Made by a program: the position numbers and the translations under genes. The notes beneath the pieces are model-generated. The model saw only the letters and a program-made list of their open reading frames with translations, searched no databases and was not told where the DNA came from. 64,000 nt of DNA from Thermococcus sp. AM4 (GTDB lineage: Archaea > Methanobacteriota_B > Thermococci > Thermococcales > Thermococcaceae). This document shows positions 28,055 to 44,574 of this stretch, in pieces (within the stretch, counting starts at the first letter, position 1; each line of letters begins with the position of its first letter). Location: the NCBI RefSeq assembly GCF_000151205.2, contig NC_016051.1, positions 1,612,001 to 1,676,000 of the forward strand, in the 5' to 3' direction.

Positions 28055-28659
28055 CACTCCTCACCCCCTTTCTTCACGAGCATGAAGGCCGAGACTGGAA
28101 TTCCCTCGGTCTCCCTGAGCTTCTCGACGGTCTTGCGCATCTTTGCCTCCTGGGTCAGGCCGATTCTGTCTTCAAGGGCGTAGGTCTCGAAGATTTCCTT
28201 GGGCAGGATGTTCCTCACGTACTCAATCTGCCTCTCGGTGAAGTCGAGGTATTCGCCACACTCCTCGCAGTAAGCGAGCTTGTGCTCGACGACTTCGACG
28301 AGGTCTTCCTTGTTGTCGGTCGCTATCTCGAAGATGTTCGTCGGTTCCATCGCGCCGGTCGGGCAGACCTCCACACAGCGGTGGCACCTTATACATCTCG
28401 CCGCGTTGAAGGTGAGCCTCTTAACGCCGTGCTCCTTGTCCCACTCGAGGATTAGCGCATCGGGTGGGCAGGCGTTGACGCAGGCACCACAGCCTATGCA
28501 CTTCTCGGGGTTGATGTGCGGAATTCCGCGGTACTCGGGTGGCTTCTCGATGTCAATAAAAGGATAGGGAGTGGTGACCGGGGCCTTCTTGCTGAACTTC
28601 TCGACCTCGAAGCGGTCCCACTTCTTGAGCTTCTCGGTGTAGGAGAGGCTCTCGGCCAT
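28054..28659 (-). CDS. FHL ferredoxin-like subunit, HycF/NuoI-like
   Basis: The 201-residue protein has two [4Fe-4S] motifs, CIGCGACVNACPPDA and CIRCHRCVEVCPTGA, then a CEEC pair and a helical end. It passes electrons between the formate-side ferredoxin subunit and the hydrogenase small subunit. Start ATG 28659, overlapping the large-subunit stop (TGATG). It belongs to the same operon. Confidence 0.9.
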   Translation of the reverse strand: MAESLSYTEKLKKWDRFEVEKFSKKAPVTTPYPFIDIEKPPEYRGIPHINPEKCIGCGACVNACPPDALILEWDKEHGVKRLTFNAARCIRCHRCVEVCPTGAMEPTNIFEIATDNKEDLVEVVEHKLAYCEECGEYLDFTERQIEYVRNILPKEIFETYALEDRIGLTQEAKMRKTVEKLRETEGIPVSAFMLVKKGGEE

Positions 28660-30458
28660 CAGAACACCCCCCTGTACTTGATTGAGAGCTCGTTGAACTC
28701 GGCCTCGGTGAGAACCTTCACCTTGCCGGTCTGGACGTCGACGAACTGGACCCTCTCGGTACAGGAGTAGCACGGGTCGATGCTCGCTATGATGAGCGGT
28801 GCATCGGCAACGTGGTAGCCCTTGAGCATCTCCGGAACGGCGGGCAGGTTGTTGTACGTAGGAGCACGGACTTTCCAGCGGTAGACCTTGTTCTTCTCGC
28901 CGGTCATGACGTAGTGGACCACTTCACCGCGGTGGGCCTCGGTGAATCCAAGGGCTTCCTCGTACTCCGGCAGGTCGCCGATTGGAACCATTATGTCCCC
29001 GCCGGGCATCTGGTCAATGAGCTGTTCCACTATCCAGAGGCTCTCAAAGAGCTCGTCCATCCTGACGAGAACCCTTGCTAAAACGTCGCCCTCCTTATAA
29101 ACAGGAACCTTGAAGTCAACCTCGTTGTAGGCCATGGCAGTCTTCGTTGCCTGGTCGAGCCTCGTGTCGATCTTCCTTCCGCTGGCCCTTGCAGTCGGTC
29201 CGAGGACGGAGTAAGCCTTGGCGACCTTGTAGGGCAGGATTCCGACTCCCTCGGCGCGCTTGATGAAGGTGTTGGTGTTCAGGGCGATGTCAAGGAACTT
29301 CTTGGTTTCCTCGCGTATCTGCTTGACCACCTTGAGGATCTCCTCCTTGCGGTAGTCGAGGATGTCCCTCCTAACTCCACCGACGATGTTCATTCCGTAC
29401 TGCTTCCTGTTTCCGGTTAAGCGCTCGACGAGCCACATGACCGGCTCGCGGATTCTCCACGCGTGCATGAAGCCGGTGTCGTAGCCGACGAGGTGCGCGG
29501 CAATGCCGACCCAGAGCAGGTGGTTGTGTATCCTCTCCAGCTCGAGCATCAGCGTCCTTATGTAGCGCGCCCTGTCCGGGATTTCCACGTCGGCTAAACG
29601 CTCAACGGCCATGGCATAGCTGACGGAGTGCTGGTAGCCGCAGATTCCGCAGATTCTCTCGGCGAGGAAGAGAACCTGGTTGTAGGTAAGTCTGCCCTCA
29701 CCGGTCTTCTCGATTCCCCTGTGGGAGTAGAAGCCGCGGTAGTCAACGTCTACGATTTCTTCTCCCTTGACGAAGAGCCTGAAGTGGGCCGGCTCCTCGA
29801 TACCCATGTGAACCGGACCCATTGGGACGAGCGTCGTTCCCTCGGGCTTCTCCTTGAACTCTGTCTTGACTTCTGCCATCGGTGAGTGCCTGTAGTCCAT
29901 GTCCTTCCTGAGCGGGTAAACACCATCGGGCCAGTCCTCCGGAAGGATGAGCCTCCTCGGGTCAGGATGGCCAATGGGGTTGAAGCCGAGTAAGTCCTTA
30001 ACTTCCCTCTCTATCCAGAGCGCGGCTGGGAGCTTTGCCGCGACGCTCGGGAAGCTCGGGTCGTCGGCCGGGAGATAGGCCTTAAGGAAGACCCAGTAGT
30101 TCTCGTCCATGTTGAGGGGCTCGACCTGGACGTTGAGGAAGGGCATGTAGACGAAGTGGCCGTTGAGGGGCCTCTCGTCGGTTCCAACGGCAGTTGAGAG
30201 GTGGGTCTCCTTGAACTCCGGGTGGTTGTGCCACCAGAGGACGGCCTCTGGAAGAACTTCCCTGTCAATCACGAACTGGTATTCACCGTAGCTCATCCTC
30301 TTGCACTCTTTAATGTGCTCCCTGAAGGCCTCGTAAAACTCCCTAAGGCCCTTTCTCTCAGCGAGGATCGTTTCGACATCAGCCTTTCTGCAGTGGCCGT
30401 TTTCGCAGGCCCTGCACTCAAACTCGAAGTGAGCCTCCAAATCCTTCGTCGTTACCAT
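28659..30458 (-). CDS. FHL [NiFe]-hydrogenase large subunit, HycE-like (NuoCD fusion)
   Basis: This 599-residue catalytic subunit reduces protons to H2. Residues 1-180 are NuoC/HycE N-terminal (REVKDLLGFNPIGHPDPRRL); the rest is NuoD-like. NiFe ligands are ERICGICGYQHS (L1) and DPCYSCTERVQF (L2). About 30 residues follow the CTER site, a removable tail for HycI. An extra N-terminal Cys cluster, CRACENGHC, is present. The start is ATG 30458 after GGTGGTGAAT. Group 4 hydrogenase. Confidence 0.93.
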   Translation of the reverse strand: MVTTKDLEAHFEFECRACENGHCRKADVETILAERKGLREFYEAFREHIKECKRMSYGEYQFVIDREVLPEAVLWWHNHPEFKETHLSTAVGTDERPLNGHFVYMPFLNVQVEPLNMDENYWVFLKAYLPADDPSFPSVAAKLPAALWIEREVKDLLGFNPIGHPDPRRLILPEDWPDGVYPLRKDMDYRHSPMAEVKTEFKEKPEGTTLVPMGPVHMGIEEPAHFRLFVKGEEIVDVDYRGFYSHRGIEKTGEGRLTYNQVLFLAERICGICGYQHSVSYAMAVERLADVEIPDRARYIRTLMLELERIHNHLLWVGIAAHLVGYDTGFMHAWRIREPVMWLVERLTGNRKQYGMNIVGGVRRDILDYRKEEILKVVKQIREETKKFLDIALNTNTFIKRAEGVGILPYKVAKAYSVLGPTARASGRKIDTRLDQATKTAMAYNEVDFKVPVYKEGDVLARVLVRMDELFESLWIVEQLIDQMPGGDIMVPIGDLPEYEEALGFTEAHRGEVVHYVMTGEKNKVYRWKVRAPTYNNLPAVPEMLKGYHVADAPLIIASIDPCYSCTERVQFVDVQTGKVKVLTEAEFNELSIKYRGVF

Positions 30459-30460
30459 AT

Positions 30461-31378
30461 TCACCACCCCATGAACGCCATGCCCAGGATCACCAGGCCG
30501 ACGAAGAACATCCTAACGTTCATCTTTACTACGTGGTCTATCCTCAGCCTCGCGTTAGTCGCTTCGAGGGCCGCTATGATCGGGTAGAAGGCAACCGTCA
30601 GGATGAACTGAAGTGCGAGCACCAGTGCCGCCCTCTCCGGGGTGTTTATCGGTCCGATCCAGGGCATCGTTAGAATGCTGACGAAGAACCACAGCAGTGC
30701 GAAGCGCTTTATGTGTATCGCGTAGTAGAAGACCCCGAGGAGCCTTCCGCTGTACTCGCCCAGCGGGCCGCCTATGACTTCCTGCTCCGCCTCGGCAACG
30801 TCGAAGGGCACGAAGCCGCTCTCGACGTAGAGCGCGTAGGCAAGGACGATGTACGCGAGCACGAGCGAGGGCGTGAGGTGGAGGTTGGCTATGATGTCGG
30901 CTATGTTGAGCGAACCCGCGTTGTAAGCTAAGACACCGTAGAGAACCGCTATGAGGGGCTCAACGGTGAGGATGAGCTGGGCTTCCCTCGTGGCGCCAAT
31001 GTGGCTGAAGGCGTTCTGGACGCTCAGACCTCCGAAGATCAGGAAGACGCTGACCATCAGGATTACGTAGAAGAACACCACCAGGTTGAAGCCGAAGTCC
31101 ACTGGAATCACGTTTCCGTAGGGCAGGAGCAGCGCGGCCGAGATCGCCGAGGCCAGGGCCAGGAACGGGGCCGCGGTGAAGAGTAAGCTCTTCGTTGGTT
31201 TGACGGATGGAAGGTTGAAGAGCTTCTGGAGGTCGTACCAGGTCTGCATGAGCGGCGGCCCGCGCCTGTACTGGAGTCTCGCCTTGACCCTTCTCGCTAT
31301 TCCGTCGAGGTAAGGCGGCAGGAGGAAGATGATGAGGATCCCGACGAGCTCGAATCCGATCTTGATCGTTGTCTCCAT
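30461..31378 (-). CDS. FHL membrane subunit, HycD/NuoH-like
   Basis: The 305-residue integral protein has about eight membrane helices. NuoH hallmarks: RVKARLQYRRGPPLMQTWYD, FDVAEAEQEVIGGPLGEYSG (with the conserved acidic loop) and a C-terminal RIDHVVKMN. NuoH anchors the hydrogenase arm to the membrane and couples to ion movement. Start ATG 31378 after AGGTGATGGGA. Order and spacing place it in the FHL operon. Confidence 0.9.
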   Translation of the reverse strand: METTIKIGFELVGILIIFLLPPYLDGIARRVKARLQYRRGPPLMQTWYDLQKLFNLPSVKPTKSLLFTAAPFLALASAISAALLLPYGNVIPVDFGFNLVVFFYVILMVSVFLIFGGLSVQNAFSHIGATREAQLILTVEPLIAVLYGVLAYNAGSLNIADIIANLHLTPSLVLAYIVLAYALYVESGFVPFDVAEAEQEVIGGPLGEYSGRLLGVFYYAIHIKRFALLWFFVSILTMPWIGPINTPERAALVLALQFILTVAFYPIIAALEATNARLRIDHVVKMNVRMFFVGLVILGMAFMGW

Positions 31379-31388
31379 TCCCATCACC

Positions 31389-33383
31389 TCACAGGGCTAT
31401 AAGGATTCCTATCACGGCTCCGATGATAACCAGGGCCAGGATCACGAAGGTTCCGAGCCTCATTCCCGGGAGGACGTTTTTGACGATCCTGAGCAGTCTG
31501 AGCAGTGGCTTGAGGGCCTCTTCGTCTATGTGCATTATCTCCCTCTCACGGAGGTCGTCGAGGGTCTCAACCTTCGTGTACGGCGTATCGACGATCTTCG
31601 TGAAGTAGCTGGCGATCCAGAGGTAGGCCCTGACTATGTAGTGGATTATTCCGGCCCCAACGCTGTAGAACCAGTCGCCCAGCCGGTAGAAGGAGCCTAT
31701 CTTCTCCTCGTACCAGTGGTAGTAGCCCTCGGCGTTCGTTCTGTACTCGTCCTCGTCTATCTCGGTTGAGCCGCAGTCCCAGGGTTTGGCTTCCTTGTAC
31801 TCGGGCTTGAAGGTCAGGTACAGGGCAACGGTGAGTCCGGCGAGTAGTATCACGAAGATCACCGGCGAGAAGAGCACCGAGCCGAAGCCTATCCTGTAGA
31901 GGTTCTCGGTGAGGGGTGCGTTGAAGGGCTCGTTGAGGATTGGGACTACCAGCTTGGGGAAGACGCCGATGACGAGGGTCAGACCGGCCAGAATCCACTG
32001 GCCTATGAGCATTCCCGCTGGAACTTCCCTAACTTCCTCGTAGCGCTTCATCTCGCCGCCGAACTGGGTTCCGTAGAACTTGATGAACGATGCAAGCGTA
32101 GCGGCGCTGATGAAGGCCGCCAGAACGGCTCCGAAGGCAAGGATGAAGCTTCCTGACTGGTAGCCGGAGACGTAGATCAGCCACTTGCTGATGAAGCCGT
32201 TGAAGGGCGGAACGCCGCTTATGGCGAGCGAGGCGAAGAGCGCCGCCAGAGCGGTTATCTTCATGTTCCTGCCGAGACCGCCGAGCTCGTTGAGGTCAAC
32301 GGTTCCGGTTCTGTACTCCACCGCGCCAGCCGAGAGGAAGAGCGAGGCCTTGAATATCGCGTGGTTGAGTGCGTGGAAGAGCCCTGCAAAGGCGCCGAGA
32401 GCTCCAATAGCCCCGAGGAAACCGCCCTTTGGAATGAGGGCCATTCCTATGCCGATTCCGAGCCATATGTAGCCCATCTGGCCAACGGAGTGGTATGCGA
32501 GCAGTCTCTTTGCGTTGGTCTCCCTGAGGGCGTAGAGCGTTCCAACGGTTAGCGTTATCGCACCGAGGATCGCGACGATCATACCGAGGGTTGTGTTCGG
32601 CCCAACGGTCTTCCAGACCAGGGCGATGAGACCGTAGAGGGCAACCTTCTCCATTGCTCCGGCCATCACCGCCGAAACGCTGGTCGGGGCCGCCCTGTAG
32701 GTTTCCGCCACCCAGAACTGGAAGGGCACTATTCCAGCCTTGGTCATGAAGGCCAGCAGGAGAAGGCCGTACAGTACGAGCTTTGTGCTCTCAGGGGCCG
32801 TGAGGAGGTGGTAGTGGATGTTCTCGAAGGTGAGCTTTTCAAAGCTTCCGACGAGCGAGTAAGCCGTTCCGAGGGCAAGGAAGAGCGGAATCGTGTCGAG
32901 GAAGTGCATGGTGATGTAGTACTTGACGCTCGCGTCCGTGTCCCTCTTTTTCTCGCTGAAGAAGACCAGTATGAACGAGCTCAGCGTCATGAGCTCCCAG
33001 CTCATAACGAAGTACTCCATGCTGTCCACCGTAACGACTAGGGTCATGCTCGCGAGGAACGTGTTGTAGGCTATTGCGTACACCCAGCCCTTGCCCGTTT
33101 TCTCGAAGATCTCCATGTAGTTGATCGCGAAGAGCGATGCCGCGACGCCGACTATGCCTATGATGAGGAGGAAGACGTTTGAGAGGCCGCTCACGTTCAG
33201 GGGGATCCCGAAGAGGCTGAGCTTCTCCGGCCCGTTGGTGTAGACGTAGTAGACCTCTCCGAGGATCGCGAGCGAGCCGAGGAAGGCCATGAAGCTGGAG
33301 GCCTTTACACTCGCCTTGTACTCCCTAACGAAGCCTATCACACCGCCGATGATGAAGGCTATGATCGCGTACTCAAGGAACAT
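31389..33383 (-). CDS. FHL antiporter-like subunit, NuoL/HyfB type (664 residues)
   Basis: This long membrane protein has about 15 membrane segments, with antiporter motifs: VMSWELMTLSSFILVFFSEK (Glu), KAGIVPFQFWVAETYRAAPT (Lys and His), HSVGQMGYIWLGIG and HALNHAIFKASLF. The C-terminus is a 120-residue extension (EIDEDEYRTNAEGYYHWYEE, then two helices) like a HyfB/NuoL. It would move Na+ or H+ during formate oxidation. Start ATG 33383 after GGGGTGATGGGGA. Confidence 0.9.
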   Translation of the reverse strand: MFLEYAIIAFIIGGVIGFVREYKASVKASSFMAFLGSLAILGEVYYVYTNGPEKLSLFGIPLNVSGLSNVFLLIIGIVGVAASLFAINYMEIFEKTGKGWVYAIAYNTFLASMTLVVTVDSMEYFVMSWELMTLSSFILVFFSEKKRDTDASVKYYITMHFLDTIPLFLALGTAYSLVGSFEKLTFENIHYHLLTAPESTKLVLYGLLLLAFMTKAGIVPFQFWVAETYRAAPTSVSAVMAGAMEKVALYGLIALVWKTVGPNTTLGMIVAILGAITLTVGTLYALRETNAKRLLAYHSVGQMGYIWLGIGIGMALIPKGGFLGAIGALGAFAGLFHALNHAIFKASLFLSAGAVEYRTGTVDLNELGGLGRNMKITALAALFASLAISGVPPFNGFISKWLIYVSGYQSGSFILAFGAVLAAFISAATLASFIKFYGTQFGGEMKRYEEVREVPAGMLIGQWILAGLTLVIGVFPKLVVPILNEPFNAPLTENLYRIGFGSVLFSPVIFVILLAGLTVALYLTFKPEYKEAKPWDCGSTEIDEDEYRTNAEGYYHWYEEKIGSFYRLGDWFYSVGAGIIHYIVRAYLWIASYFTKIVDTPYTKVETLDDLREREIMHIDEEALKPLLRLLRIVKNVLPGMRLGTFVILALVIIGAVIGILIAL

Positions 33384-33389
33384 TCCCCA

Positions 33390-34826
33390 TCACCCCGCAA
33401 AGCCTATCTTCATAACCACGTCCAGCGTTATCCAGGGGGCAACGATGGCTATGAGGATCAGGACGATCATTGCAGCCGTCATGAGCGCTGGCTCGCTGAC
33501 TTCCGCCCTCGGTTCGGGCTCACCGAAGAATATCTCCCTGAACCACAGCAGAACGACCACCAGGAAGATTGCCGCGTCGAAGAGGACCACCGCCGGGAAG
33601 AGCCACGAGGCAATTCCCTGGGCGTGCCTGGTGCTCATGATCGTGAAGGCCTTGCTGAAGAACAGTCCGAGCGGAAGGACACCGGCTAAGCCGAGGAAGC
33701 TCATGAACCACGCGACGCTGGCCCAGGGGAGGCTCTTTCTTATTCCCCTGATCCTCTTGAGGTCGGTCGTTCCGAGGGAGTAGGCGAAGGCCCCGACGCT
33801 CATGAATGCCAGTGCCTTGACGAAGGCGTGGTTGACCACCTGGTAGAGGGCTATCTGAAGGCCAACCTCGTGGCCGAGGAGTGCGTAGGCCAGGGTTATG
33901 TAGGCAACCCCCGCCTGTGCTATCGTGGAGTACGCTATTAGCCTCTTTGCATCGCGCTGGAGCGGGTAGTAGATCATCATGAGGAGTATCAGCGCCACGG
34001 TGAGCGCTCCGAGGAGCCAGAAGTCGTCCTTTCCCGGGTTCATGTACTGGATCACGCGGAAGAGCATGAAGCTTCCGAGGGGGACTATCGAGGCGGAGTG
34101 CACGTAGGCGCTGGCCGGAACCGGGGAAGCCGTTGAATCCGGAAGCCACGAGTAGAAGAAGAACTGCGAGCTCATCGCGAAGGCCGCGAAGGTTAGAACC
34201 GCGAAGATCCTGTCCTTCGTCGACTGGGAGAGCGAGGACATCTTTGCCAGCTCCTGACCGTTGCCGAGGAGGACTATCGAGAGCAGCAGGAGGAAAACGC
34301 CGAGGTTCAGGACGAGAAATGCCTTCAGTGCTTTTCCTTCCGCGTTTCCGTGGAAGTTCACCAGGTAGAAGAACGCCACCGCCATCAGCTCGAGGAACAC
34401 GGCGAACTGGATCAGGCTCGTCGAGTATATGAATGCCATGCTCGATCCCACGAGCAGGCCGAGGAGTGCGTAGAAGCGCCCCTTGCCCTCCTTGAGGGGG
34501 GAGCCCCTGTTGGACGGGCCCAGGTAATCCGCCGCGTAGAGGACGAGCAGGAACGCGGTGAGTATCGAGACGAAGCCCATCAAAACCGACGCCACGTCAA
34601 CGTTAACGCCGAAGACCTCTCCGAGCTTACCGCCGGAGGCGTAGGAGAAGTGGTAGACCTTCTCTGCCCCCGATCTGAAGAAGGCGTACGTCCCAAGGCC
34701 GTTCACTACCAGTGCGAGGCCTGTTATCAGGATCGCGACGGTATCGGCGATTCTGCCCTCCATCTTGTAGATGAGCAGCAGCAGGAAGGGCAAGAGTGCC
34801 GAGACCATGAACACGGTGCCGTTCAC
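33390..34826 (-). CDS. FHL antiporter-like subunit, NuoN/MnhD/HyfF type (478 residues)
   Basis: This second proton/sodium-channel-like subunit has about 13 membrane segments. Motifs: QFAVFLELMAVAFFYLVNF (Glu), SWLPDSTASPVPASAYVHSA (Pro-rich loop in place of Lys-helix), YSTIAQAGVAYITLAY and QVVNHAFVKALAFMSVGAF. GTG 34826 starts after AGGGGTGG. It lies between fdhB and the large antiporter, so the operon has two antiporter-like subunits but none of the small Mrp/Mnh subunits. Confidence 0.88.
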   Translation of the reverse strand: MNGTVFMVSALLPFLLLLIYKMEGRIADTVAILITGLALVVNGLGTYAFFRSGAEKVYHFSYASGGKLGEVFGVNVDVASVLMGFVSILTAFLLVLYAADYLGPSNRGSPLKEGKGRFYALLGLLVGSSMAFIYSTSLIQFAVFLELMAVAFFYLVNFHGNAEGKALKAFLVLNLGVFLLLLSIVLLGNGQELAKMSSLSQSTKDRIFAVLTFAAFAMSSQFFFYSWLPDSTASPVPASAYVHSASIVPLGSFMLFRVIQYMNPGKDDFWLLGALTVALILLMMIYYPLQRDAKRLIAYSTIAQAGVAYITLAYALLGHEVGLQIALYQVVNHAFVKALAFMSVGAFAYSLGTTDLKRIRGIRKSLPWASVAWFMSFLGLAGVLPLGLFFSKAFTIMSTRHAQGIASWLFPAVVLFDAAIFLVVVLLWFREIFFGEPEPRAEVSEPALMTAAMIVLILIAIVAPWITLDVVMKIGFAG

Positions 34827-34879: not shown

Positions 34880-35377
34880 TCAGAGGACGATGTAGGCCTT
34901 CTCGCCCTCCCCCTTCTCTGCGGAGCTCTTCAGGTTGGCCACGATCTTTCCTTCCCTGTTCCAGAGGACCTCGTTTACGTCGCCGTAGAGCAGGGCCTCG
35001 GTTGGGCAGGCCGAGACACACGCTGGAAGCTTTCCTTCCGCCCTTCTGTCGGAACAGAGGTCGCACTTGTCCATGATCTTGTTCTCCTCGTCGAGCTTTG
35101 GAATTCCGAAGGGACACGCTACCGCACACATAAGACAGCCGATACACTTGAGCGGGTCAAAGGCCACCGCGCCGTCCTCGTCCCTGAAGAGTGCCCCGGT
35201 CGGACAGACGTTGAGACACGGAGCCTTCTCACAGTGGCGGCAGTTGAAGGGGACGGTGAAGAGGTCGGGGAACTCGAAGACCCTTATCCTTGCCTCGCCG
35301 TGGGTCATCTCACAGGCGACCTCACAGGCCCTGCAGCCGATACAGCGCTTATAGTCGAGGAAAATCTTCTTGCTCAT
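34880..35377 (-). CDS. fdhB: Ferredoxin-type subunit of formate dehydrogenase, HycB/FdhB-like
   Basis: The 165-residue electron carrier has four [4Fe-4S] motifs: CIGCRACEVACEMTHG, CRHCEKAPCLNVCPTGA, CIGCLMCAVACPFGIP and CDLCSDRRAEG...CVSACPTEA. It carries electrons from FdhA to the hydrogenase arm. ATG 35377 follows AGGTGGTTGGA. The fdhA stop is 11 bases upstream in the same operon. Confidence 0.9.
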   Translation of the reverse strand: MSKKIFLDYKRCIGCRACEVACEMTHGEARIRVFEFPDLFTVPFNCRHCEKAPCLNVCPTGALFRDEDGAVAFDPLKCIGCLMCAVACPFGIPKLDEENKIMDKCDLCSDRRAEGKLPACVSACPTEALLYGDVNEVLWNREGKIVANLKSSAEKGEGEKAYIVL

Positions 35378-35387
35378 TCCAACCACC

Positions 35388-37445
35388 TCACTCCTCCACC
35401 TTACTAACCCTGGCCGCGACGGCCTTCAGCTCTGCCATCTTGGTTATCTCGTGGGTCTCTTCGAGGGTCAGGAAGTTGGCCTGCCAGTGCCAGGGCATGG
35501 CTATGACGCCCTCCCTGACGTGGTCGGTAACCTCGGCCCTGACGAGAACGCTTCCGCGCCTGGTCTCGACCTTGACGAGGTCTCCGCTCTTTATCCCGTA
35601 CTTCTCGGCGTCCTTCGGGTTGATCATGACGTACTCCTCGGGCCAGCGCTTCTCAAGGCTCGGGCTCTCGAAGGACATGGTTCCCGTGTGCCAGTGGCCG
35701 ACCTGTCTGAAGTTCGTGAGCCAGAGCGGGTACTCCTCGTCCGGCATCTCCGGCGGCTCGCGCCACTTAACCGGCTGGAGGTGGGCCTTTCCATCGCTCG
35801 TCTTGAAGGCACCCTTGAAGAGAACCTTCGTTCCCTCGCCGGGCTCGGTGCACGGGAAGAAGCATCCCTCGGGGTGCTCCGCGAGATATTCGGGAGTTGC
35901 TCCCTTGAAGATCGGAATGACGCTGTTTATCTCCCTGAGGATCTCGTCCGGGTGCTCGTACTTGAAGTACTCGCCGAGGCCGAGCTCTTTAGCTAACTCG
36001 ACGAGGATGAGCCAGTCCGGCTTTGCCTCTCCCGGGGCTTCGGCGGCCTTGTAAGTCCTCTGAACCCTCCTCTCGGCGCTTATTGCAGTTCCGGTCTTCT
36101 CGAACCAGGCGGCAGCTGGGAGAACTATGTCCGCGTACATGGCAGTGTCGGTGAGGAATATGTCCTGGACAACCAGAAAGTCGAGCTTCTTGAGCTGCTC
36201 CCTGACCCACCTGCTGTTCGGGGCGGACTTGGCGATGTTGCCGCCGACGATGTACATCATCCTGATCCTGTTGCCCATCTCGCGTATCATGCTGGTTAGA
36301 TCGAGGCCAGCCCAGTCGGGTATCTTGAAGCCCCAGAGCCTCTCAAGCTCGGCCCTCGCGGCCTCGTCGGTGACGAGCTTTCCGGTCGGGAGCTTGTTTG
36401 GAGCTATTCCAGTCATGGCGGCACAGAATCCACACTGGGCACCGGGGAAGACACCGCTCCAGACTCCCTCTTTCCCGATGTTGCCGGTGATGGCTATGAG
36501 GTTCGCTATTGCGAGGGCGAGCTCAAAGCCGTTGACGTGCTGGTTCATTCCCTCGTTGACGAGGAGGGCGGTTCTCTTCGTTGCTATGAGCCTTGCCACC
36601 TTTCTGATGTCCTCGGCTGGAACGCCGCTTACCTTCTCTGCCCACTCGGGGGTGTAGTCCTTAACGGACTCCTTGAGCTCCTCAAAACCCGTAACCCTCT
36701 CCTGGACAAACTCTTTGGCATAGAGCTCCTCGCCGATTACGACGTTGAGCATTGCCAGGGCTATCGCGAGGTCGGTTCCGGGGTAGGGCTTGAGGTGAAG
36801 CGAGGCGTACTTATGACCCCTGGTCGCGCGCGGGTCTATGACGACCATCTCCGCCCCGTTGTCGAGGACCGCCTTCTCGATGTACTGGCCGAAGAAGACG
36901 GGAGCGGTTTCCGCTGGGTTGTGGCCCCAGATGACTATCAGCTCGGCCTTGGCAACGTCCTCGAATGGGTTGGTCGCCGCGGCGCTGCCGAACACCTTCG
37001 TTCTGGCCGGGCTGTTGGAGTACTGGCAGTATCTGCCGGGGAAGTCGAGGTTGTTGGTTCCTATCGCCTTGGACAGCTTGTGGACGAGGTAGTTCTCCTC
37101 GAAGGTTATCTTCTCGCTCCCGAGGAAGGCTATGGCCTCTGGACCGTAGGTTTCCTTGATCTCCTTGATCTTCTCGGCGATTATCCTGTACGCCTCGTCC
37201 CAGCTTATCTCCTCGAACTTTCCTTCTCCCTTTTCACCAACGCGCTTGAGGGGCTTCTTGAGTCTCTTGGGGCTGTTTATGAACTGGTATGACGCAACGC
37301 CCTTTGGACAGAGCTTTCCGCGGTTGACGGTGGGGTTGTCGTAGTCGAACTCGATCTTCCTGATATAGCCGTTAACGCTGACCGCATAGAAGCGACAGCC
37401 GACTGAACACCAGGGACATACAACCGGCACGAGTTTCTCTGCCAT
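35388..37445 (-). CDS. fdhA: Formate dehydrogenase catalytic subunit, MGD type
   Basis: The 685-residue molybdopterin enzyme oxidises formate. N-terminal [4Fe-4S] site: CPWCSVGCRFYAVS and GKLCPKGVASYQFIN. RYCQYSNSPART contains the Cys at the metal position (no selenocysteine). MGD-binding segments: VIDPRATRGHKYAS, MYIVGGNIAKSAPNS. C-terminal beta barrel: TNFRQVGHWHTGT, RGSVLVRAEVTD. Start ATG 37445 after GGTGGTGACC. It heads the minus-strand FHL operon under a TetR-type operator. No focA-like formate channel is in the operon. Confidence 0.94.
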   Translation of the reverse strand: MAEKLVPVVCPWCSVGCRFYAVSVNGYIRKIEFDYDNPTVNRGKLCPKGVASYQFINSPKRLKKPLKRVGEKGEGKFEEISWDEAYRIIAEKIKEIKETYGPEAIAFLGSEKITFEENYLVHKLSKAIGTNNLDFPGRYCQYSNSPARTKVFGSAAATNPFEDVAKAELIVIWGHNPAETAPVFFGQYIEKAVLDNGAEMVVIDPRATRGHKYASLHLKPYPGTDLAIALAMLNVVIGEELYAKEFVQERVTGFEELKESVKDYTPEWAEKVSGVPAEDIRKVARLIATKRTALLVNEGMNQHVNGFELALAIANLIAITGNIGKEGVWSGVFPGAQCGFCAAMTGIAPNKLPTGKLVTDEAARAELERLWGFKIPDWAGLDLTSMIREMGNRIRMMYIVGGNIAKSAPNSRWVREQLKKLDFLVVQDIFLTDTAMYADIVLPAAAWFEKTGTAISAERRVQRTYKAAEAPGEAKPDWLILVELAKELGLGEYFKYEHPDEILREINSVIPIFKGATPEYLAEHPEGCFFPCTEPGEGTKVLFKGAFKTSDGKAHLQPVKWREPPEMPDEEYPLWLTNFRQVGHWHTGTMSFESPSLEKRWPEEYVMINPKDAEKYGIKSGDLVKVETRRGSVLVRAEVTDHVREGVIAMPWHWQANFLTLEETHEITKMAELKAVAARVSKVEE

Positions 37446-37461
37446 GGTCACCACCTTTTAA

Positions 37462-37504
37462 TGACTGACCAGTCATTTAGACTGGACGTCAAGACCTTAA
37501 ATAG
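37462..37504 (-). promoter_or_regulatory. fdhA promoter with TGACTG-type operator
   Basis: The TATA box is CTATTTAAGG on the minus strand (about 37495-37504). Downstream of it TGACTGACCAGTCA (37462-37475) is the core of an AATGACTG-AC-CAGTCATT inverted repeat, overlapped by CCAGTC-ATTTA-GACTGG (37469-37485). Lying between TATA and start, it would give repression. Similar motifs occur at 38170 and 38655. Confidence 0.7.
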
Positions 37505-37563
37505 TTTTCTGCAATGGCCGAAACAGAATGGATTAATGTGACACTCCGTGTTAAACGAGGGGC

Positions 37564-38163
37564 TCAAACACTGGCGGAGAGACGGAGGTGATTGAGAACA
37601 ACGTTCACAATCTTTTTCAGGTAGTGCTCCTTCGGGAACCCCAGGCACTCTTTTGCGTGGAGGTAGTGCATAAGTGACGCCACAAAAACCTGAAACGCTA
37701 TGAGGGCGTCTTCAAAGCCGACCTTAACGTACGCGGTGATCCTCCTCGCACCTTCCCTCAAAAGTTCAGAACAGGCCTGACGGTAGATCTCATCGATGCT
37801 CTTCATCCTCTCGCGAACGGATAGCATGTGGAAGAATATCTCCGCCCGGTAGCTCTCGGAGTAAAAGTCGAGGAACTCCTTTCCAAGCTGGAGGAGGTAG
37901 CTCTCAAGGGTTGGGAAAGAAACCGTGATGTAAGGGTCGTTCAGGGACGGCATGGCCATTATGGGCATGACCTCGAAGGCGAGCTCCTTTATGAGGTCGT
38001 CCTTGCTCTTGAAGTAGAGGTAGAACGTCCCCTTGGCAACTCCCGCTCGGGCGACTATCTCATCGACGGTAGTCTTGTCAAAGCCCTTCTTTGCGAAGAG
38101 CTCCATTGCCGACGCCACTAGTTTTCCCCTTGTTTTTCCCGGTGATTTTGTGGCCATTCCCAT
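37564..38163 (-). CDS. TetR-family transcription regulator, probable regulator of FHL
   Basis: The 199-residue protein has a TetR N-terminal HTH: TRGKLVASAMELFAKKGFDK, TTVDEIVARAGVAKGTFYLY, FKSKDDLIKELA. The helical ligand domain follows. It lies immediately upstream of fdhA on the same strand, with an own-promoter copy of the TGACTG-type dyad, so autoregulation plus control of fdhA is inferred. ATG 38163 (or 38157) is chosen; the longer frame is rejected because the HTH would start too late. Confidence 0.88.
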   Translation of the reverse strand: MGMATKSPGKTRGKLVASAMELFAKKGFDKTTVDEIVARAGVAKGTFYLYFKSKDDLIKELAFEVMPIMAMPSLNDPYITVSFPTLESYLLQLGKEFLDFYSESYRAEIFFHMLSVRERMKSIDEIYRQACSELLREGARRITAYVKVGFEDALIAFQVFVASLMHYLHAKECLGFPKEHYLKKIVNVVLNHLRLSASV

Positions 38164-38169
38164 CCCTTC

Positions 38170-38222
38170 TGACCACACAGTCATTTTCTTATGGACAGTT
38201 ATGTGCAGAAGGGAATTTAAAC
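38170..38222 (-). promoter_or_regulatory. tetR promoter and operator copy
   Basis: AGTTTAAATTC on the minus strand (about 38212-38222) is the TATA box. TGACCACACAGTCA (38170-38183), i.e. TGACTG-TG-TGGTCA on the minus strand, lies 7 bases before the ATG. It matches the fdhA dyad at 11 of 14 positions. Confidence 0.6.
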
Positions 38223-38260
38223 TTTCCGCCCGGGAGGGGTTTGAAAAAAGGTGTTGGGAG

Positions 38261-38644
38261 TTACAAAATCGAACTAACGATCTCTTCATCGACCTTCGAG
38301 ACCTCTGAGAGGACCTCGCCGAGCTCCGGTGGAGCCATCTTTGCGAAGAGCCCCATGTTCATGCAGTAAACGTAAACCCCGTCGGGGTTCTCAACGACCG
38401 AGAAATGGCACGGCATGAAGGCGGAAATCCAGCGGTTCTCGGGCTTCTCAAGCGCCTTTCTGGCAAAATCCTTGTTGCAGACCTCGATTATGGTCAGCTT
38501 AACGCCGATCTTCTCGGCTAGATCGTGCTCCCCGATAACGCTCCAGCCGAGTTCTTTGGTCTTCTCCTTTATCCTCTCCACCGTCTCTCCGTAGGGATAC
38601 CTGCTCTTCACAACTTTGATCATCTGTGTCATAATTTCCTCCAT
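38261..38644 (-). CDS. DUF302-domain protein
   Basis: The 127-residue protein contains the DUF302 pattern: SRYPYGETVERIKEKTKELG, VIGEHDLAEKIG, VKLTIIEVCNKDFARKALE and SAFMPCHFSVVENPDGVYVY. DUF302 proteins are small, often linked to redox or metal processes, with conserved Cys in the CNKDFA and MPCHFSV segments; function unknown. Start ATG 38644 after GGTGGTTCCG. Its promoter carries the TetR-type dyad. Confidence 0.85.
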   Translation of the reverse strand: MEEIMTQMIKVVKSRYPYGETVERIKEKTKELGWSVIGEHDLAEKIGVKLTIIEVCNKDFARKALEKPENRWISAFMPCHFSVVENPDGVYVYCMNMGLFAKMAPPELGEVLSEVSKVDEEIVSSIL

Positions 38645-38654
38645 CGGAACCACC

Positions 38655-38687
38655 TGACTGACTGGTCAGGAAAAGGTCTATAAATCG
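38655..38687. promoter_or_regulatory. Shared DUF302/hypC-like promoter region with TetR-type operator
   Basis: TGACTGACTGGTCA (38655-38668) lies directly downstream of the minus-strand TATA box (GATTTATAGACC, about 38675-38686). The same ATAAATC element may serve the plus-strand hypC-like gene starting at 38714, 30 bases away. The TetR protein may thus control both DUF302 and the hyp cluster. Confidence 0.6.
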
Positions 38688-38713
38688 TTTTCTATCACCT
38701 TTGGTTGATAACC

Positions 38714-38968
38714 ATGGCCCTGATGCTCGCGGGGAAGGTCCTCGAGGTGAGGAATGGAAGGGCGATAGTCGACGTGGACGGCCAGCTCAAGGAGGCAAGG
38801 CTGGACTTTGTAAAAGATGTAAAACCCGGGGACTACGTGAAGATTTACTACGGCATAGTTCTTGAGAAGGTCAGCAGGAGCGAGGCCGAGGAAACCCTCG
38901 CGAGGTGCTCCTACCACCGCTCAAGAAAGCTCGAGCCCACCTTCACGGTTTCAAACCGGAGGTTTTAG
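38714..38968 (+). CDS. HypC/HupF-family paralogue lacking the N-terminal Cys
   Basis: The 84-residue protein aligns with HypC: MLAGKVLEVRNGRAIVDVDG, LKEARLDFVKDVKPGDYVKI, YYGIVLEKVSRSEAEETLA. True HypC starts Met-Cys; here the N-terminus is MALMLAGKV so the catalytic Cys2 is absent. The C-terminus has an extra CSYHRSRK and ends SNRRF. The next gene is canonical hypC. It may be a regulatory or scaffold variant. GTTGATAACC is the RBS region; ATG 38714, or internal ATG 38723. Confidence 0.8.
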   Translation: MALMLAGKVLEVRNGRAIVDVDGQLKEARLDFVKDVKPGDYVKIYYGIVLEKVSRSEAEETLARCSYHRSRKLEPTFTVSNRRF

Positions 38969-39012
38969 AAAGGCTAAATAGCCCGTTTGAGAATCCAGGG
39001 TAGGTGAAGCTC

Positions 39013-39273
39013 ATGTGTCTGGCGACCGTTGCGAAGGTTTTGGAGGTTGACAGGGAGAAGGGAACCGCGTGGGTGGACTTCGGAGGCGTCAAGAGAGAGG
39101 CCAGAATTGATTTGATGCCCGACGTCAAGCCCGGTGAATACGTGCTGATTCACACCGGCTTCATAATCGAGCGCGTTGATGAAGAGACCGCGAAGGAAAT
39201 CCTCTCGGCCTGGGACGAGGTCTTCAAGCTGGAGAAGGACGCGATAGGCGGCTACTACTACCCGGGTGATTGA
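39013..39273 (+). CDS. hypC: Hydrogenase maturation chaperone HypC
   Basis: The 86-residue protein begins MCLATVAKVLEVDREKGTAW with the essential Cys2, then VDFGGVKREARIDLMPDVKP and YVLIHTGFIIERVDEETAKE. HypC shuttles the Fe(CN)2CO precursor between HypD and the large subunit. ATG 39013 after GGTGA. The stop TGA is just before the hypD ATG at 39275. Confidence 0.95.
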   Translation: MCLATVAKVLEVDREKGTAWVDFGGVKREARIDLMPDVKPGEYVLIHTGFIIERVDEETAKEILSAWDEVFKLEKDAIGGYYYPGD

Positions 39274-39274
39274 T

Positions 39275-40384
39275 ATGGGAACGCTGGACAAGTTCAGGGA
39301 CAGGGAGCTCGCCCAAAAGATAGTGAAGAAAATCCACGAGGAGGCGAAGGGCCTCGACGAGGTCCGCTTCATGCACGTCTGCGGAACCCACGAGGACACC
39401 GTAACGAGAACCGGAATCCGCTCGCTCCTGCCAGAGAACGTCAAGATACTCAGCGGGCCGGGCTGTCCGGTCTGCATTACGCCGGTCGAGGACATCGTTA
39501 AAATGATGGAGATAATGCGCCAGGCCTACGAGGAGGGCGACAGAATAATCATGACGACCTTCGGCGACATGTACAAGATTCCGACGCCGAGGGGAAGCTT
39601 CGCCGATTTGAAGAGCGAGGGCTACGACGTCCGCGTTGTTTACTCAATCTACGACACCTACCGCATAGCCAAGGAGAACCCCGACAGGACGGTGGTCCAC
39701 TTCTCACCGGGCTTCGAGACGACCACAGCTCCGGCCGCGGGAATGCTCAACGTTGTTGCCCAGGAGGAGCTGGAAAACTTCAAGATTTACTCGGTTCACA
39801 GGCTCACGCCACCGGCGGTTGAGGTCCTCATAAAGCAGGGGACGCGCTTCCACGGGCTCATTGACCCCGGCCACGTCTCGGTTATAATAGGCGTCAAGGG
39901 CTGGGAGCCGATAACCGAGAAGTACGGAGTTCCCCAGGTTATAGCCGGTTTCGAGCCGGTTGACATGCTCCTCGCGATACTCTACCTCGTCAGAATGGTG
40001 AAGGCCGGCGAGGCGAAGATAATCAACGAGTACACCCGCTCCGTTAAATACGAGGGCAACGTCGTTGCCCAGAAGCTCATAGACAAGTTCTTCGAGGTCA
40101 AGGACGCGAGGTGGCGCGCCCTCGGGGTCATGCCCAAGAGCGGGCTCGAGCTGAGGAAGGAGTGGAAGGAGCTCGAGATAAGAACCTACTACGACCCCGA
40201 AGTCCCGAAGCTCCCCGACCTCGAGAAGGGCTGTCTCTGCGGTGCAATCCTCAGGGGATTAGCTTTGCCACCGCAGTGCCCGCACTTCGGAAAGACCTGC
40301 ACGCCGAGGCACCCGATAGGGCCGTGCATGGTGTCCTACGAGGGAACGTGCTCGATATTCTACAAGTACGGGGCGTTGTTCTAA
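39275..40384 (+). CDS. hypD: Hydrogenase maturation protein HypD
   Basis: The 369-residue [4Fe-4S] protein assembles the Fe(CN)2CO group with HypC and HypE. Motifs: HVCGTHEDTV, GPGCPVCITPVED, HFSPGFETTTAPAAG, and the C-terminal Cys cluster GCLCGAILRG, PQCPHFGKTCTPRHPIGPCM and YEGTCSIFYKYG. ATG 39275 after GGTGATTGAT. It follows hypC by one base. Confidence 0.95.
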   Translation: MGTLDKFRDRELAQKIVKKIHEEAKGLDEVRFMHVCGTHEDTVTRTGIRSLLPENVKILSGPGCPVCITPVEDIVKMMEIMRQAYEEGDRIIMTTFGDMYKIPTPRGSFADLKSEGYDVRVVYSIYDTYRIAKENPDRTVVHFSPGFETTTAPAAGMLNVVAQEELENFKIYSVHRLTPPAVEVLIKQGTRFHGLIDPGHVSVIIGVKGWEPITEKYGVPQVIAGFEPVDMLLAILYLVRMVKAGEAKIINEYTRSVKYEGNVVAQKLIDKFFEVKDARWRALGVMPKSGLELRKEWKELEIRTYYDPEVPKLPDLEKGCLCGAILRGLALPPQCPHFGKTCTPRHPIGPCMVSYEGTCSIFYKYGALF

Positions 40385-40433
40385 CACCAAAGGTTCAAAA
40401 CTCCACTCTCGTTTTCAACTTTTGGTTTTGGAA

Positions 40434-40443
40434 ACCTATAAAG
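40434..40443 (+). promoter_or_regulatory. hypF TATA box
   Basis: CCTATAAAGG with upstream GGAAA purines lies about 35-40 bases before the hypF start at 40477, following an AT-rich stretch after hypD. It suggests separate transcription of hypF onward. Confidence 0.55.
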
Positions 40444-40476
40444 GCTCCAAATACCGAGAAAAACCGGTGGGTGGGC

Positions 40477-42795
40477 ATGAAGGCTTACCGTATTCACGTT
40501 CAGGGCATCGTTCAGGCCGTTGGATTCAGGCCGTTCATTTACCGCATAGCCCACGAGCACAACCTGAGGGGCTACGTCAAGAACCTCGGCGATGCGGGAG
40601 TCGAGATAGTCGTCGAAGGCCGTGAAGAGGATATAGAGGCATTCATAGAGGACATCTACCGCAAGAAACCCCCGCTCGCGAGGATTGACAGGCTTGAGAA
40701 GAAGGAAATCCCGCCCCAGGGCTTCGACCGCTTCTACATCGAGAAGAGCTCGAAGGGTGGAAGCGGTGGGGACTCGATAATTCCGCCCGACATAGCCATC
40801 TGCGAGGACTGCCTGAGAGAACTTTTCGACCCGACGAACAAGCGCTACATGTACCCCTTCATCGTCTGCACCAACTGTGGGCCGAGGTTCACAATTATCG
40901 AGGATTTACCCTACGACCGCGAGAACACGACGATGAAGGAATTTCCGATGTGCGACTTCTGCGAGAGCGAGTACAGAGACCCGCTCAACCGGCGCTACCA
41001 TGCTGAACCCGTCTGCTGTCCCGTCTGCGGGCCGAGCTACCGTCTCTACACGAGCGACGGGGAGGAAATCACCGGCGACCCGCTGAGGAAGGCAGCGGAG
41101 CTTATAGACAGGGGTTACATCGTCGCAATCAAGGGAATCGGCGGAATCCATCTGGCGTGCGACGCGACAAGGGAAGACGTCGTTGCCGAGCTGAGGAAGA
41201 GGACCTTCAGGCCCCAGAAGCCCTTCGCGATAATGGCTGACTCGCTTGAGACGGTCAAAAGCTTCGCCTACGTGAGCGAGGAGGAAGAGGAGGAGCTGAC
41301 CAGCTATAGAAGACCAATCGTGACGCTCCGCAAGAGAGAACCCTTCCCCCTGCCCGAGAACCTCGCGCCCGGTTTGCATACAATCGGCGTCATGCTCCCC
41401 TACGCGGGAACGCACTACATACTCTTCCACTGGAGTAAGACTAAGGTCTACGTGATGACCTCAGCCAACTACCCGGGAATGCCGATGGTCAAGGACAACG
41501 AGAGGGCCTTCGAGGAGCTGAAGGACGTCGCTGACTACTTCCTGCTCCACAACAGAAGGATACTCAACCGCGCGGACGATAGCGTGATTCGCTTCGTTGA
41601 CGGAAGGAGGGCCGTTATTAGGAGAAGCAGAGGTTTTGTGCCCCTCCCTATAGAGATTCCCTTCAACTACCGCGGTCTGGCAGTCGGTGCGGAGCTGATG
41701 AACGCCTTCGGCGTGGCCAAGAACGGGAAGGTTTACCCGAGCCAGTACATCGGCAACACCGGAAAGGTCGAGGTTCTTGAGTTCATGAGGGAAGCGATAG
41801 AGCACTTCAAGAGGATTCTCCGGGTTAGGGAGTTCGATTTAATCGTCGCCGACCTCCACCCGACCTACAACACGACAAAGCTCGCCATGGAGCTTGCGAA
41901 CGAGTTAAACGTCGAGCTGCTCCAGGTTCAGCATCACTACGCCCACATAGCGAGTGTCTTAGCCGAGAAGAACCTCGAATCAGCTGTAGGAATAGCCGTT
42001 GATGGAGTGGGCTACGGAACCGATGGCAACACGTGGGGTGGCGAGGTGCTCTACCTCGGCTACGAGGACGTGGAGAGGCTGGCTCATATAGATTACTACC
42101 CGCTTCCCGGCGGGGACCTGGCGAGCTACTACCCGCTCAGGGCCCTGATGGGAATCCTAAGCAAGGTCTACAGCGTCGAGGAGCTTGAGGGAGTCATAAG
42201 GAAGTGCTGTCCGAAGGCGATAGGAAGCTTAAAGTACGGCGAGGTGGAGTTCTCGGTTGCTTTGAATCAGCTCGCCAAGGGGATAAACCTCGCCTACGCT
42301 TCGTCAACCGGAAGGGTCCTCGACGCCTTCTCTGTGCTCCTCAACGTGGCCTACAGGAGGCACTACGAGGGCGAGCCTGCGATGAAGCTTGAGAGCTTCG
42401 CGATGAAGGGCAAGAACGACCTCAAGTTCGAGGTGCCCGTGGAGGGAGAACTCCTCAAGGTGGAAGAGCTGTTCGTGCAGGCGCTGGACGTCCTCGAAAA
42501 GGCCTCGCCGGCGGACATAGCTTACTCGGTTCATTTAGCACTCGCGAGGGCCTTTGCGGGGGTTGCCATCGAGAAGGCCAGGGAGTTCGGCGTGAAGGAC
42601 GTCGTAATGAGCGGTGGTGTCGCTTACAACGAGCTGATAGTCAAGACAGTAAGGAAAGCTGTTGAGGCGTCGGGCCTTAAGTTCCACGTTACAACGGAGG
42701 TCCCGCGCGGAGACAACGGGATAAACGTCGGCCAGGCCTTCCTCGGCGGGCTGTACCTGGAGGGCTACCTGACGAAGGAGGATTTGATGCTGTGA
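40477..42795 (+). CDS. hypF: Carbamoyltransferase HypF
   Basis: The 772-residue protein makes thiocarbamate from carbamoyl phosphate for the CN ligands. Domains: acylphosphatase (1-90; VQGIVQAVGFRPFIYRIAHE), zinc fingers (CEDCLREL, CTNCGPRF, CDFCESEY, CCPVCGPSY), YrdC-like (200-380; KGIGGIHLACDATRED, SANYPGMPMV) and Kae1-like carbamoyltransferase (HHYAHIASVLAE, GVGYGTDGNTWGGE, MSGGVAYNELI). ATG 40477 after GGTGGGTGGGC; the longer upstream frame is the hypD shadow. Confidence 0.95.
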   Translation: MKAYRIHVQGIVQAVGFRPFIYRIAHEHNLRGYVKNLGDAGVEIVVEGREEDIEAFIEDIYRKKPPLARIDRLEKKEIPPQGFDRFYIEKSSKGGSGGDSIIPPDIAICEDCLRELFDPTNKRYMYPFIVCTNCGPRFTIIEDLPYDRENTTMKEFPMCDFCESEYRDPLNRRYHAEPVCCPVCGPSYRLYTSDGEEITGDPLRKAAELIDRGYIVAIKGIGGIHLACDATREDVVAELRKRTFRPQKPFAIMADSLETVKSFAYVSEEEEEELTSYRRPIVTLRKREPFPLPENLAPGLHTIGVMLPYAGTHYILFHWSKTKVYVMTSANYPGMPMVKDNERAFEELKDVADYFLLHNRRILNRADDSVIRFVDGRRAVIRRSRGFVPLPIEIPFNYRGLAVGAELMNAFGVAKNGKVYPSQYIGNTGKVEVLEFMREAIEHFKRILRVREFDLIVADLHPTYNTTKLAMELANELNVELLQVQHHYAHIASVLAEKNLESAVGIAVDGVGYGTDGNTWGGEVLYLGYEDVERLAHIDYYPLPGGDLASYYPLRALMGILSKVYSVEELEGVIRKCCPKAIGSLKYGEVEFSVALNQLAKGINLAYASSTGRVLDAFSVLLNVAYRRHYEGEPAMKLESFAMKGKNDLKFEVPVEGELLKVEELFVQALDVLEKASPADIAYSVHLALARAFAGVAIEKAREFGVKDVVMSGGVAYNELIVKTVRKAVEASGLKFHVTTEVPRGDNGINVGQAFLGGLYLEGYLTKEDLML

Positions 42796-42839
42796 AGGTT
42801 TAAGTGGGGAAAGCAGGAAATTAACTGAGGGAAAAGACA

Positions 42840-43166
42840 ATGCCCGTAATCCCGAGGGAAGAGCTCCTCGAAATCCTGCGCGAGGTGAAGGAAAGGCTGA
42901 GAGAAATCCTCGGCGACGACTTAGTCGAGGTTATCCTCTTCGGCTCGTACGCGAGGGGCGAAGCTAAAGAAGACAGCGATGTCGACATGATTGTCATTGT
43001 CAAGAGACGGCTAACGCTCGAAGAGCACGACCGACTCAGTGAAATCACAGAGGAATACGTTCTGGAGAAAGGGTTAGTTGTCTCGCTCATCGTTTACCCC
43101 GTTAATCCGAGAATGGAGCACGACCCGCTGATTCAGAACGTTTACACGGAAGGTGTCAAGGTATGA
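42840..43166 (+). CDS. MNT-type nucleotidyltransferase (antitoxin)
   Basis: The 108-residue protein has the active MNT motif VEVILFGSYARGEAKEDSDV followed by DMIVIV, so GS-x10-DxD is intact. MNT antitoxins modify HEPN toxins by adding AMP. Its start follows AACTGAGGGAAAAGACA; TATA-like GGTTTAAGTGG lies near 42797-42807. It overlaps the HEPN gene by four bases and sits between hypF and hypE. Confidence 0.9.
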   Translation: MPVIPREELLEILREVKERLREILGDDLVEVILFGSYARGEAKEDSDVDMIVIVKRRLTLEEHDRLSEITEEYVLEKGLVVSLIVYPVNPRMEHDPLIQNVYTEGVKV

Positions 43167-43555
43167 GCGGGTACGAGGAAATACTGAAAAAAGCAGAGAG
43201 GAGTCTTGAGGCCTCAAAGACGTTGCTGGAGAAAGGGTTTTATGCCTTCGCGCTCTCAAGGGCGTACTATACAATGTTCTACTGCGCAGAGGCCATTTTG
43301 CTGACGAAGGGAATAAGGGTTTCGAAGCATTCCGCAGTCATAGCACTCCTCGGCAGGGAGTTCGTCAAGACAGGAGAAGTCCCACACAGGTTTTTCACAC
43401 ACCTTCGAACCGCGTTTAATCTCAGGCAGACCGCGGATTACTCCTTCGTGGTTGATATAACCGAGGAAGAGGCGCGCGAAAACATACGGCGCGCCGAAGA
43501 GTTCCTCGAATTTACGAGGCGCTATCTAATTTCGAAAGGCTTTCTGGAGGGTTGA
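43163..43555 (+). CDS. HEPN-domain protein, probable toxin
   Basis: The 130-residue protein matches HEPN: YEEILKKAERSLEASKTLLE, FYAFALSRAYYTMFYCAEAI and SKHSAVIALLG, and RTAFNLRQTADYSF with the conserved Arg and Tyr. Such HEPN RNases pair with MNT proteins. Its stop is followed after two bases by the hypE ATG (43558), putting the pair inside the hyp operon. Confidence 0.9.
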   Translation: MSGYEEILKKAERSLEASKTLLEKGFYAFALSRAYYTMFYCAEAILLTKGIRVSKHSAVIALLGREFVKTGEVPHRFFTHLRTAFNLRQTADYSFVVDITEEEARENIRRAEEFLEFTRRYLISKGFLEG

Positions 43556-43557
43556 AG

Positions 43558-44574
43558 ATGGGTGAAAAGATAAAGCTCGAACACGGTGCGGGCGGAGAAA
43601 TAATGGAGGAGCTCCTGAGGGACGTCATACTGAAGACCCTGACCCTCAAGAGCGCCGGGGGAATAGGACTCGACCAGCTCGACGACGGGGCGACGATACC
43701 GTTCGGAGACAAGCACATCGTCTTCACCATCGATGGGCACACCGTCAAGCCACTCTTCTTCCCCGGCGGTGATATAGGCAGGCTCGCAATAAGCGGAACG
43801 GTCAACGATTTGGCGGTGATGGGCGCGAAGCCTTTAGCCTTAGCAAACTCGATGATTATCGGGGAAGGCCTCGACATGGAGGTCCTTGAGAGGGTTCTCC
43901 GCTCGATGGACGAGACGTCTAAGGAAGTCCCCGTTCCAATCGTCACCGGCGACACGAAGGTCGTTGAAGAGCCGATAGAGATGTTCGTGATTACCGCGGG
44001 AGTTGGAATCGCGGAAAAGCCGGTAAGCGACGCCGGGGCAAAGGTAGGAGACATAGTCCTCGTCAGCGGAACGATAGGCGACCATGGAATAGCGCTGATG
44101 AGCCACAGGGAGGGTATAGCCTTCGAAACCGAACTGAAGAGCGACGTCGCGCCGGTGTGGGAGGTCGTTGAAGCGGTTGCAAAAGCAATCGGCTGGGAGA
44201 ACATCCACGCGATGAAGGACCCCACGAGGGCCGGGCTGAGCAACGCCCTCAACGAGATTGCCCGTAAAAGCAACGTTGGAATCCTCGTCAGGGAGGATGC
44301 CATACCCGTGAAGCCAGAGGTAAGGGCTGCGAGCGAGATGCTGGGAATCAGTCCCTACGACGTGGCGAACGAGGGGAAAGTGGTTATGGTCGTTGCCCGG
44401 GAGCACGCGGAGGAGGCCCTTGAGGCGATGAGGAAGACGAAGAGGGGGAAGGACGCGGCGATAATCGGCGAGGTAATAGAAGAATACAGGGGGAAGGTCC
44501 TCCTCGAAACCGGAATCGGCGGAAAGCGCTTCATGGAGCCTCCGGCCGGAGACCCCGTGCCGAGGATATGCTGA
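43558..44574 (+). CDS. hypE: Hydrogenase maturation protein HypE
   Basis: The 338-residue ATP-dependent dehydratase turns the thiocarbamate on its C-terminal Cys into thiocyanate. Motifs: KLEHGAGGEIMEELLRDVIL, GDDGAT-like QLDDGATIPFG, VNDLAVMGAKPLALANSMII, VSGTIGDHGIALMSHREGI, MKDPTRAGLSNALNE, and the C-terminal PRIC with the acceptor Cys. ATG 43558 right after the HEPN gene. Confidence 0.95.
   Translation: MGEKIKLEHGAGGEIMEELLRDVILKTLTLKSAGGIGLDQLDDGATIPFGDKHIVFTIDGHTVKPLFFPGGDIGRLAISGTVNDLAVMGAKPLALANSMIIGEGLDMEVLERVLRSMDETSKEVPVPIVTGDTKVVEEPIEMFVITAGVGIAEKPVSDAGAKVGDIVLVSGTIGDHGIALMSHREGIAFETELKSDVAPVWEVVEAVAKAIGWENIHAMKDPTRAGLSNALNEIARKSNVGILVREDAIPVKPEVRAASEMLGISPYDVANEGKVVMVVAREHAEEALEAMRKTKRGKDAAIIGEVIEEYRGKVLLETGIGGKRFMEPPAGDPVPRIC

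Follow-up and report, generated by a model that had tools for sequence, protein, structure and literature searches.

A TetR/AcrR gene is found about 350 nt upstream of Group 4 formate hydrogenlyase (fhl) operons in the Thermococci, and is co-transcribed with those operons (Front Microbiol 2023, PMC10025317). That review describes the mechanism of this TetR-fhl link as unknown, names no operator in its section on the linkage, and states that the regulation of Group 2-5 formate-related operons of Thermococcales is unknown as well (PMC10025317). The same gene arrangement is seen in the stretch of Thermococcus sp. AM4 DNA considered here, i.e., a ‘window’ of 64,000 nucleotides. The linkage itself is thus already published (PMC10025317). 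What is new, relative to that section of the review, is an operator along with a regulon, that is, the operator’s conservation, hyp and DUF302 targets, and a likely CO dehydrogenase (CODH) target. Searching of the non-subscription literature found no operator or regulon for this TetR.

Two further systems are relevant to an appreciation of this locus. The sulfur-responsive regulator of Thermococcales, SurR, likewise controls hydrogen metabolism operons, and a SurR-like motif is present here at the hyp/DUF302 promoter. The SurR motif, GTTn3AACn5GTT, nevertheless differs from the TetR operator. Group 4 fhl promoters are reported in the 2023 review as being without that motif (PMC10025317), and in the fdhA promoter region of the window no GTTn3AAC, with or without n5GTT, was found. 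The second system is structural, i.e., the acyl-CoA-responsive TetR regulators FadR/FasR, whose fold the model of the window TetR resembles (6o6o, TM 0.75; 3whc, TM 0.70; both among the best matches). Sequence identity is only 15-20%, however, no Pfam ligand-domain family reaches cut-off with the window TetR, and its targets are not fatty-acid genes.

The features of the locus are collected in Table 1. Gene identities that had been assigned from the sequence alone, i.e., fdhA, TetR, DUF302, and HypC, were borne out by Pfam/NCBIfam, with hypF, hypE, and the HEPN-like gene named instead from reading and context. The nucleotidyltransferase and HEPN-like pair (window 42840-43555) lies between hypF and hypE, inside of the hyp operon, and is seen in many though not all relatives.

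Table 1. Features of the TetR-linked locus, with positions counted from the first letter of the window.
Feature	Position	Strand	Basis
Further membrane hydrogenase/antiporter genes, fhl operon	28659..34826	-	ORFs; syntenic with fdhAB in relatives
fdhB, 4Fe-4S subunit	34880..35386	-	ORF; syntenic across genomes
fdhA, heading a Group 4 fhl / Mhy1-type formate hydrogenlyase operon	35388..37454	-	PF00384 E 1.3e-78, TIGR01591 E 4.5e-200
Operator at fdhA	37462..37475	.	TGACTGACCAGTCA, exact match; arms 100% kept in 26/26 orthologous promoters
fdhA TATA-like box TATTTAA	37497..37503	-	Read from sequence; kept upstream of operator in orthologues
TetR-family regulator gene	37564..38160	-	198 aa reading; alternative ATG few bases upstream; PF00440 E 7.5e-20
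Operator at tetR, autoregulatory (predicted)	38170..38183		TGACTGTGTGGTCA on minus strand, exact match; in 25/26 orthologous promoters
tetR TATA-like box TTTAAAT	38215..38221	-	Read from sequence; similar TTTAAAT/CTTAAA in orthologues
DUF302 protein gene	38261..38653	-	PF03625 E 5.7e-07
Operator at DUF302/hypC divergent promoter	38655..38668	.	TGACTGACTGGTCA, exact match
Bidirectional TATA element CTATAAAT, common to DUF302 (-) and hypC-like (+)	38678..38685	.	Read from sequence; conserved
SurR-like half motif GTTGATAAC next to shared TATA box	38704..38712	.	Near hypC start
hypC-like gene, heads divergent hyp operon	38714..38968	+	PF01455 E 2e-14
hypC, hypD, hypF, nucleotidyltransferase, HEPN-like, hypE	39004..44574	+	PF01455, PF01924, PF01909; ORFs; synteny

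The regulator itself possesses an N-terminal TetR_N helix-turn-helix (PF00440, 70.9 bits versus a cut-off of 24). It is the sole PF00440 protein of its genome, as is the case also in most genomes carrying a homologue, and thus no other TetR is available there to read the sites. Its AlphaFold2 model is an all-helical TetR fold (pLDDT 91.8) which with Foldseek matches TetR structures at E of about 1e-5, though that fold search indicates no single ligand class. A haem-NO-binding Pfam match, at E 0.004, falls under cut-off and is not counted as evidence.

Three dyads had been claimed by the sequence-only reading, one for each of the fdhA, tetR, and DUF302 promoters, and these are found exactly where they had been placed. 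Exact matches to TGACTGNNYRGTCA number four in the 2,086,428-base, single-contig genome, with three of these falling within 1.2 kb at this locus. The symmetric version, TGACYRNNYRGTCA, is observed three times in the window versus 0.025 times expected (Markov model of the window). Dyad occurrence at the locus therefore is real and far above chance. The consensus as first proposed, TGACTG-N2-YRGTCA, does match the sites but is slightly too narrow, as orthologous positions 5-6 and 9-10 read YR...YR; judging from pooled orthologous sites, the symmetric TGACYR-NN-YRGTCA is the better consensus. Specificity is confined to the full motif, since a window-wide search with three mismatches allowed displays no enrichment (84 matches versus 109 expected) and since the loose TGAC-N6-GTCA is present in 42 copies in the genome, a commonness which implies also that the YR positions matter. 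At unrelated promoters the full motif proved to be rare upon searching of the genome, the sole extra exact match being found in a CODH control region. Remaining matches away from the locus are mostly within long reading frames and are background-like.

Among 61 genomes of the genus Thermococcus that were searched, 26 possess a close TetR (65-100% identity, AM4 itself counted) and six more possess one at 33-37%. In the close-TetR genomes, TGAC-N6-GTCA is present in all 26 fdhA promoters, in 25 of 26 tetR promoters, and in 19 of 20 DUF302 promoters, with the remaining DUF302 promoter carrying a one-mismatch site. None of the eight arm bases varies among these sites, as compared with mean flank identities of 53% (fdhA), 52% (tetR), and 81% (DUF302). 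Copies of the symmetric motif, as counted by hand, average 3.5 per genome with an orthologous TetR (91 in 26) versus 0.5 per genome without any FHL-type TetR homologue (15 in 29), while a reversed-pattern control yields means of 1.1 and 0.55, respectively.

Regulator and operon also travel together. All fdhA genes of at least 79% identity are found in TetR-bearing genomes save for that of G049, a partial assembly; those of 59-62% identity are accompanied by a diverged TetR; and where the only fdhA genes are of 48% identity or less, this regulator is absent. Two TetR genomes, G036 and G039, similarly are partial assemblies with contigs ending nearby. TetR and the matching fdhA class thus co-occur except in partial assemblies. 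Where diverged TetRs (33-45% identity; Thermococcus as well as other genera) are paired with a related fdhA operon, the site at fdhA is kept. Predictions made from this were then borne out in three cases: in G088 sites are seen at both genes; in G064, with fdhA about 15 kb from TetR, two sites are located upstream of fdhA; and a second fdhA copy, in G026 (G026:C5:6651-8717), retains an operator in front even though it contains an internal stop codon. No site was found in front of the second fdhA of G089.

That each dyad is downstream of a TATA-like box, as had been claimed, is confirmed, with all three lying between that box and the start codon. Distances from operator to start, among orthologous promoters, are 16-21 nt for fdhA, 4-11 nt for tetR, and mostly 13 nt for DUF302. 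This positioning would fit a repressor, without proving one. As regards the local TetR regulon of the earlier reading, membership of fdhA, tetR, DUF302, and the divergent hyp operon is strongly supported, i.e., by footprinting of orthologous promoters and by regulator co-occurrence, whereas repression we infer from site position. Considering the observed sites, their conservation, the co-occurrence, the promoter positions, and the single TetR of the genome, we hold it to be highly probable that this TetR is an autoregulated local repressor of fhl, hyp, DUF302, and itself, one binding TGACYRNNYRGTCA dyads between TATA box and start, with the coo region probably included.

Mechanistically, TetR would bind, presumably as a dimer, to those dyads at fdhA, tetR, and DUF302, and also beside the TATA element that is shared with the divergent hyp operon. 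Bound TetR would then keep the RNA polymerase complex from assembling or from escaping, with the consequence that the Group 4 fhl operon, the hydrogenase-maturation operon, DUF302, and tetR would be repressed until some intracellular signal releases the regulator. In a subset of species, AM4 included, the cooF-cooS CODH region probably would be under the control of the same TetR.

That last target is likely, yet is less certain than the local ones. The fourth genomic motif (G000:C1:144072-144085, i.e., L068:5001-5014) is located between a cooC-like gene and cooF-cooS. A site at the same position is present in nine of 16 orthologous cooC-cooF regions, that is, in seven of nine from genomes with this TetR and in two of seven from genomes without it. 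Its presence in the latter two and absence from two of the former (one-sided Fisher about 0.07, by hand), together with a placement about 140 nt before cooF, away from the core promoter, leave a minority though appreciable chance that the coo site is instead a relic, a chance palindrome, or some other protein’s site. Against this, its arms are conserved at the same alignment position in nine genomes despite varied cores and flanks, and in its own genome it is the only full-motif match beyond the locus.

In G019, which has a CODH site, the only TetR is of a second type, and the apparent operator of that TetR differs from the one described here. This second type is seen in a few Thermococcus genomes (L131:2437, L132:966), near a flavodoxin-like gene and with a palindrome of its own, ACCGACCGGTCGGT. 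As readers of CODH sites the other-type TetRs of G019 and G051 were dropped, having no usable similarity to the window TetR and that different palindrome nearby. Separately, the cooC-cooF regions (L088-L103) contain a stretch resembling GTATAACCTTAGGTTTCACACTTTTGGATAATT that is strongly conserved and adjoins the TetR-like site, including in genomes without this TetR, and which possibly is the site of a second regulator.

Of candidate releasing signals, redox or thiol/sulfur chemistry at Cys132 (numbering of alignment A2) is a tentative one, and a reasonable candidate because this ligand-domain residue is the sole cysteine that is invariant in all 38 homologues, with identities down to 33%. It is without counterpart, as compared by eye, in two other-type TetR sequences, and in T. 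onnurineus growth on sulfur raises FdhA and FdhB as well as one hydrogenase subunit of the linked operon (PMC4463584). Conserved cysteines can be structural, however, and the fdh-mhy operon of T. litoralis, which may be of another group, displays the opposite sulfur response, i.e., down with sulfur and up on peptides (PMC2432063). Since acyl-CoA regulators are among the many TetRs that the modelled fold resembles, a peptide-catabolism metabolite is a possible signal as well.

It is unlikely that the reach of TetR stops at its own gene, the fhl operon, and DUF302, with the hyp operon under SurR rather than TetR. The GTTn3AAC at 38704, which in six orthologous loci (L016, L018-L021, L024) extends to the full GTTn3AACn5GTT, would be consistent with such a division, as would data from T. 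onnurineus, where sulfur lowers HypF and HypE but raises FdhA and FdhB of the linked operon (PMC4463584). That species, however, lacks a site directly at hypC, so its separate hyp response is uninformative on the window species. Furthermore, in four genomes without a detected DUF302 gene (L015, L017, L026, L027) the operator nonetheless remains at a near-constant 51-57 nt before the hypC-like gene, and for this reason the hyp operon probably is a direct TetR target. A perfect site at hypC is absent in three loci (L023, L028, L029), which, together with the siteless second fdhA of G089 and the other-type TetR of G019, counts against the proposed regulon.

Formate as inducer, an earlier suggestion that adjacency of the TetR gene to formate dehydrogenase genes might favour, is unsupported and decidedly unlikely in simple form given published expression, as in T. 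paralvinellae maltose or peptides give higher levels of this fhl operon class than formate does (PMC10025317), with the peptide and sulfur responses of the T. litoralis operon also speaking against it. That the dyads act as RNA hairpins was dismissed by reasoning, the constant arms being only four bases and the coo site being well removed from cooF.

Now that the operator is given exactly and the regulon defined, with genomes available in which the regulator is naturally present or absent, the question of regulation becomes testable. Perhaps, though we advance this only tentatively, the sole TetR is a dedicated one-carbon/hydrogen regulator through which fhl, NiFe-hydrogenase maturation, and CO dehydrogenase all answer to a single signal, with SurR acting beside it at the hyp promoter. 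If true, the joining of formate hydrogenlyase to CO dehydrogenase via one repressor would be new, and would be relevant to the production of biohydrogen from formate and CO.
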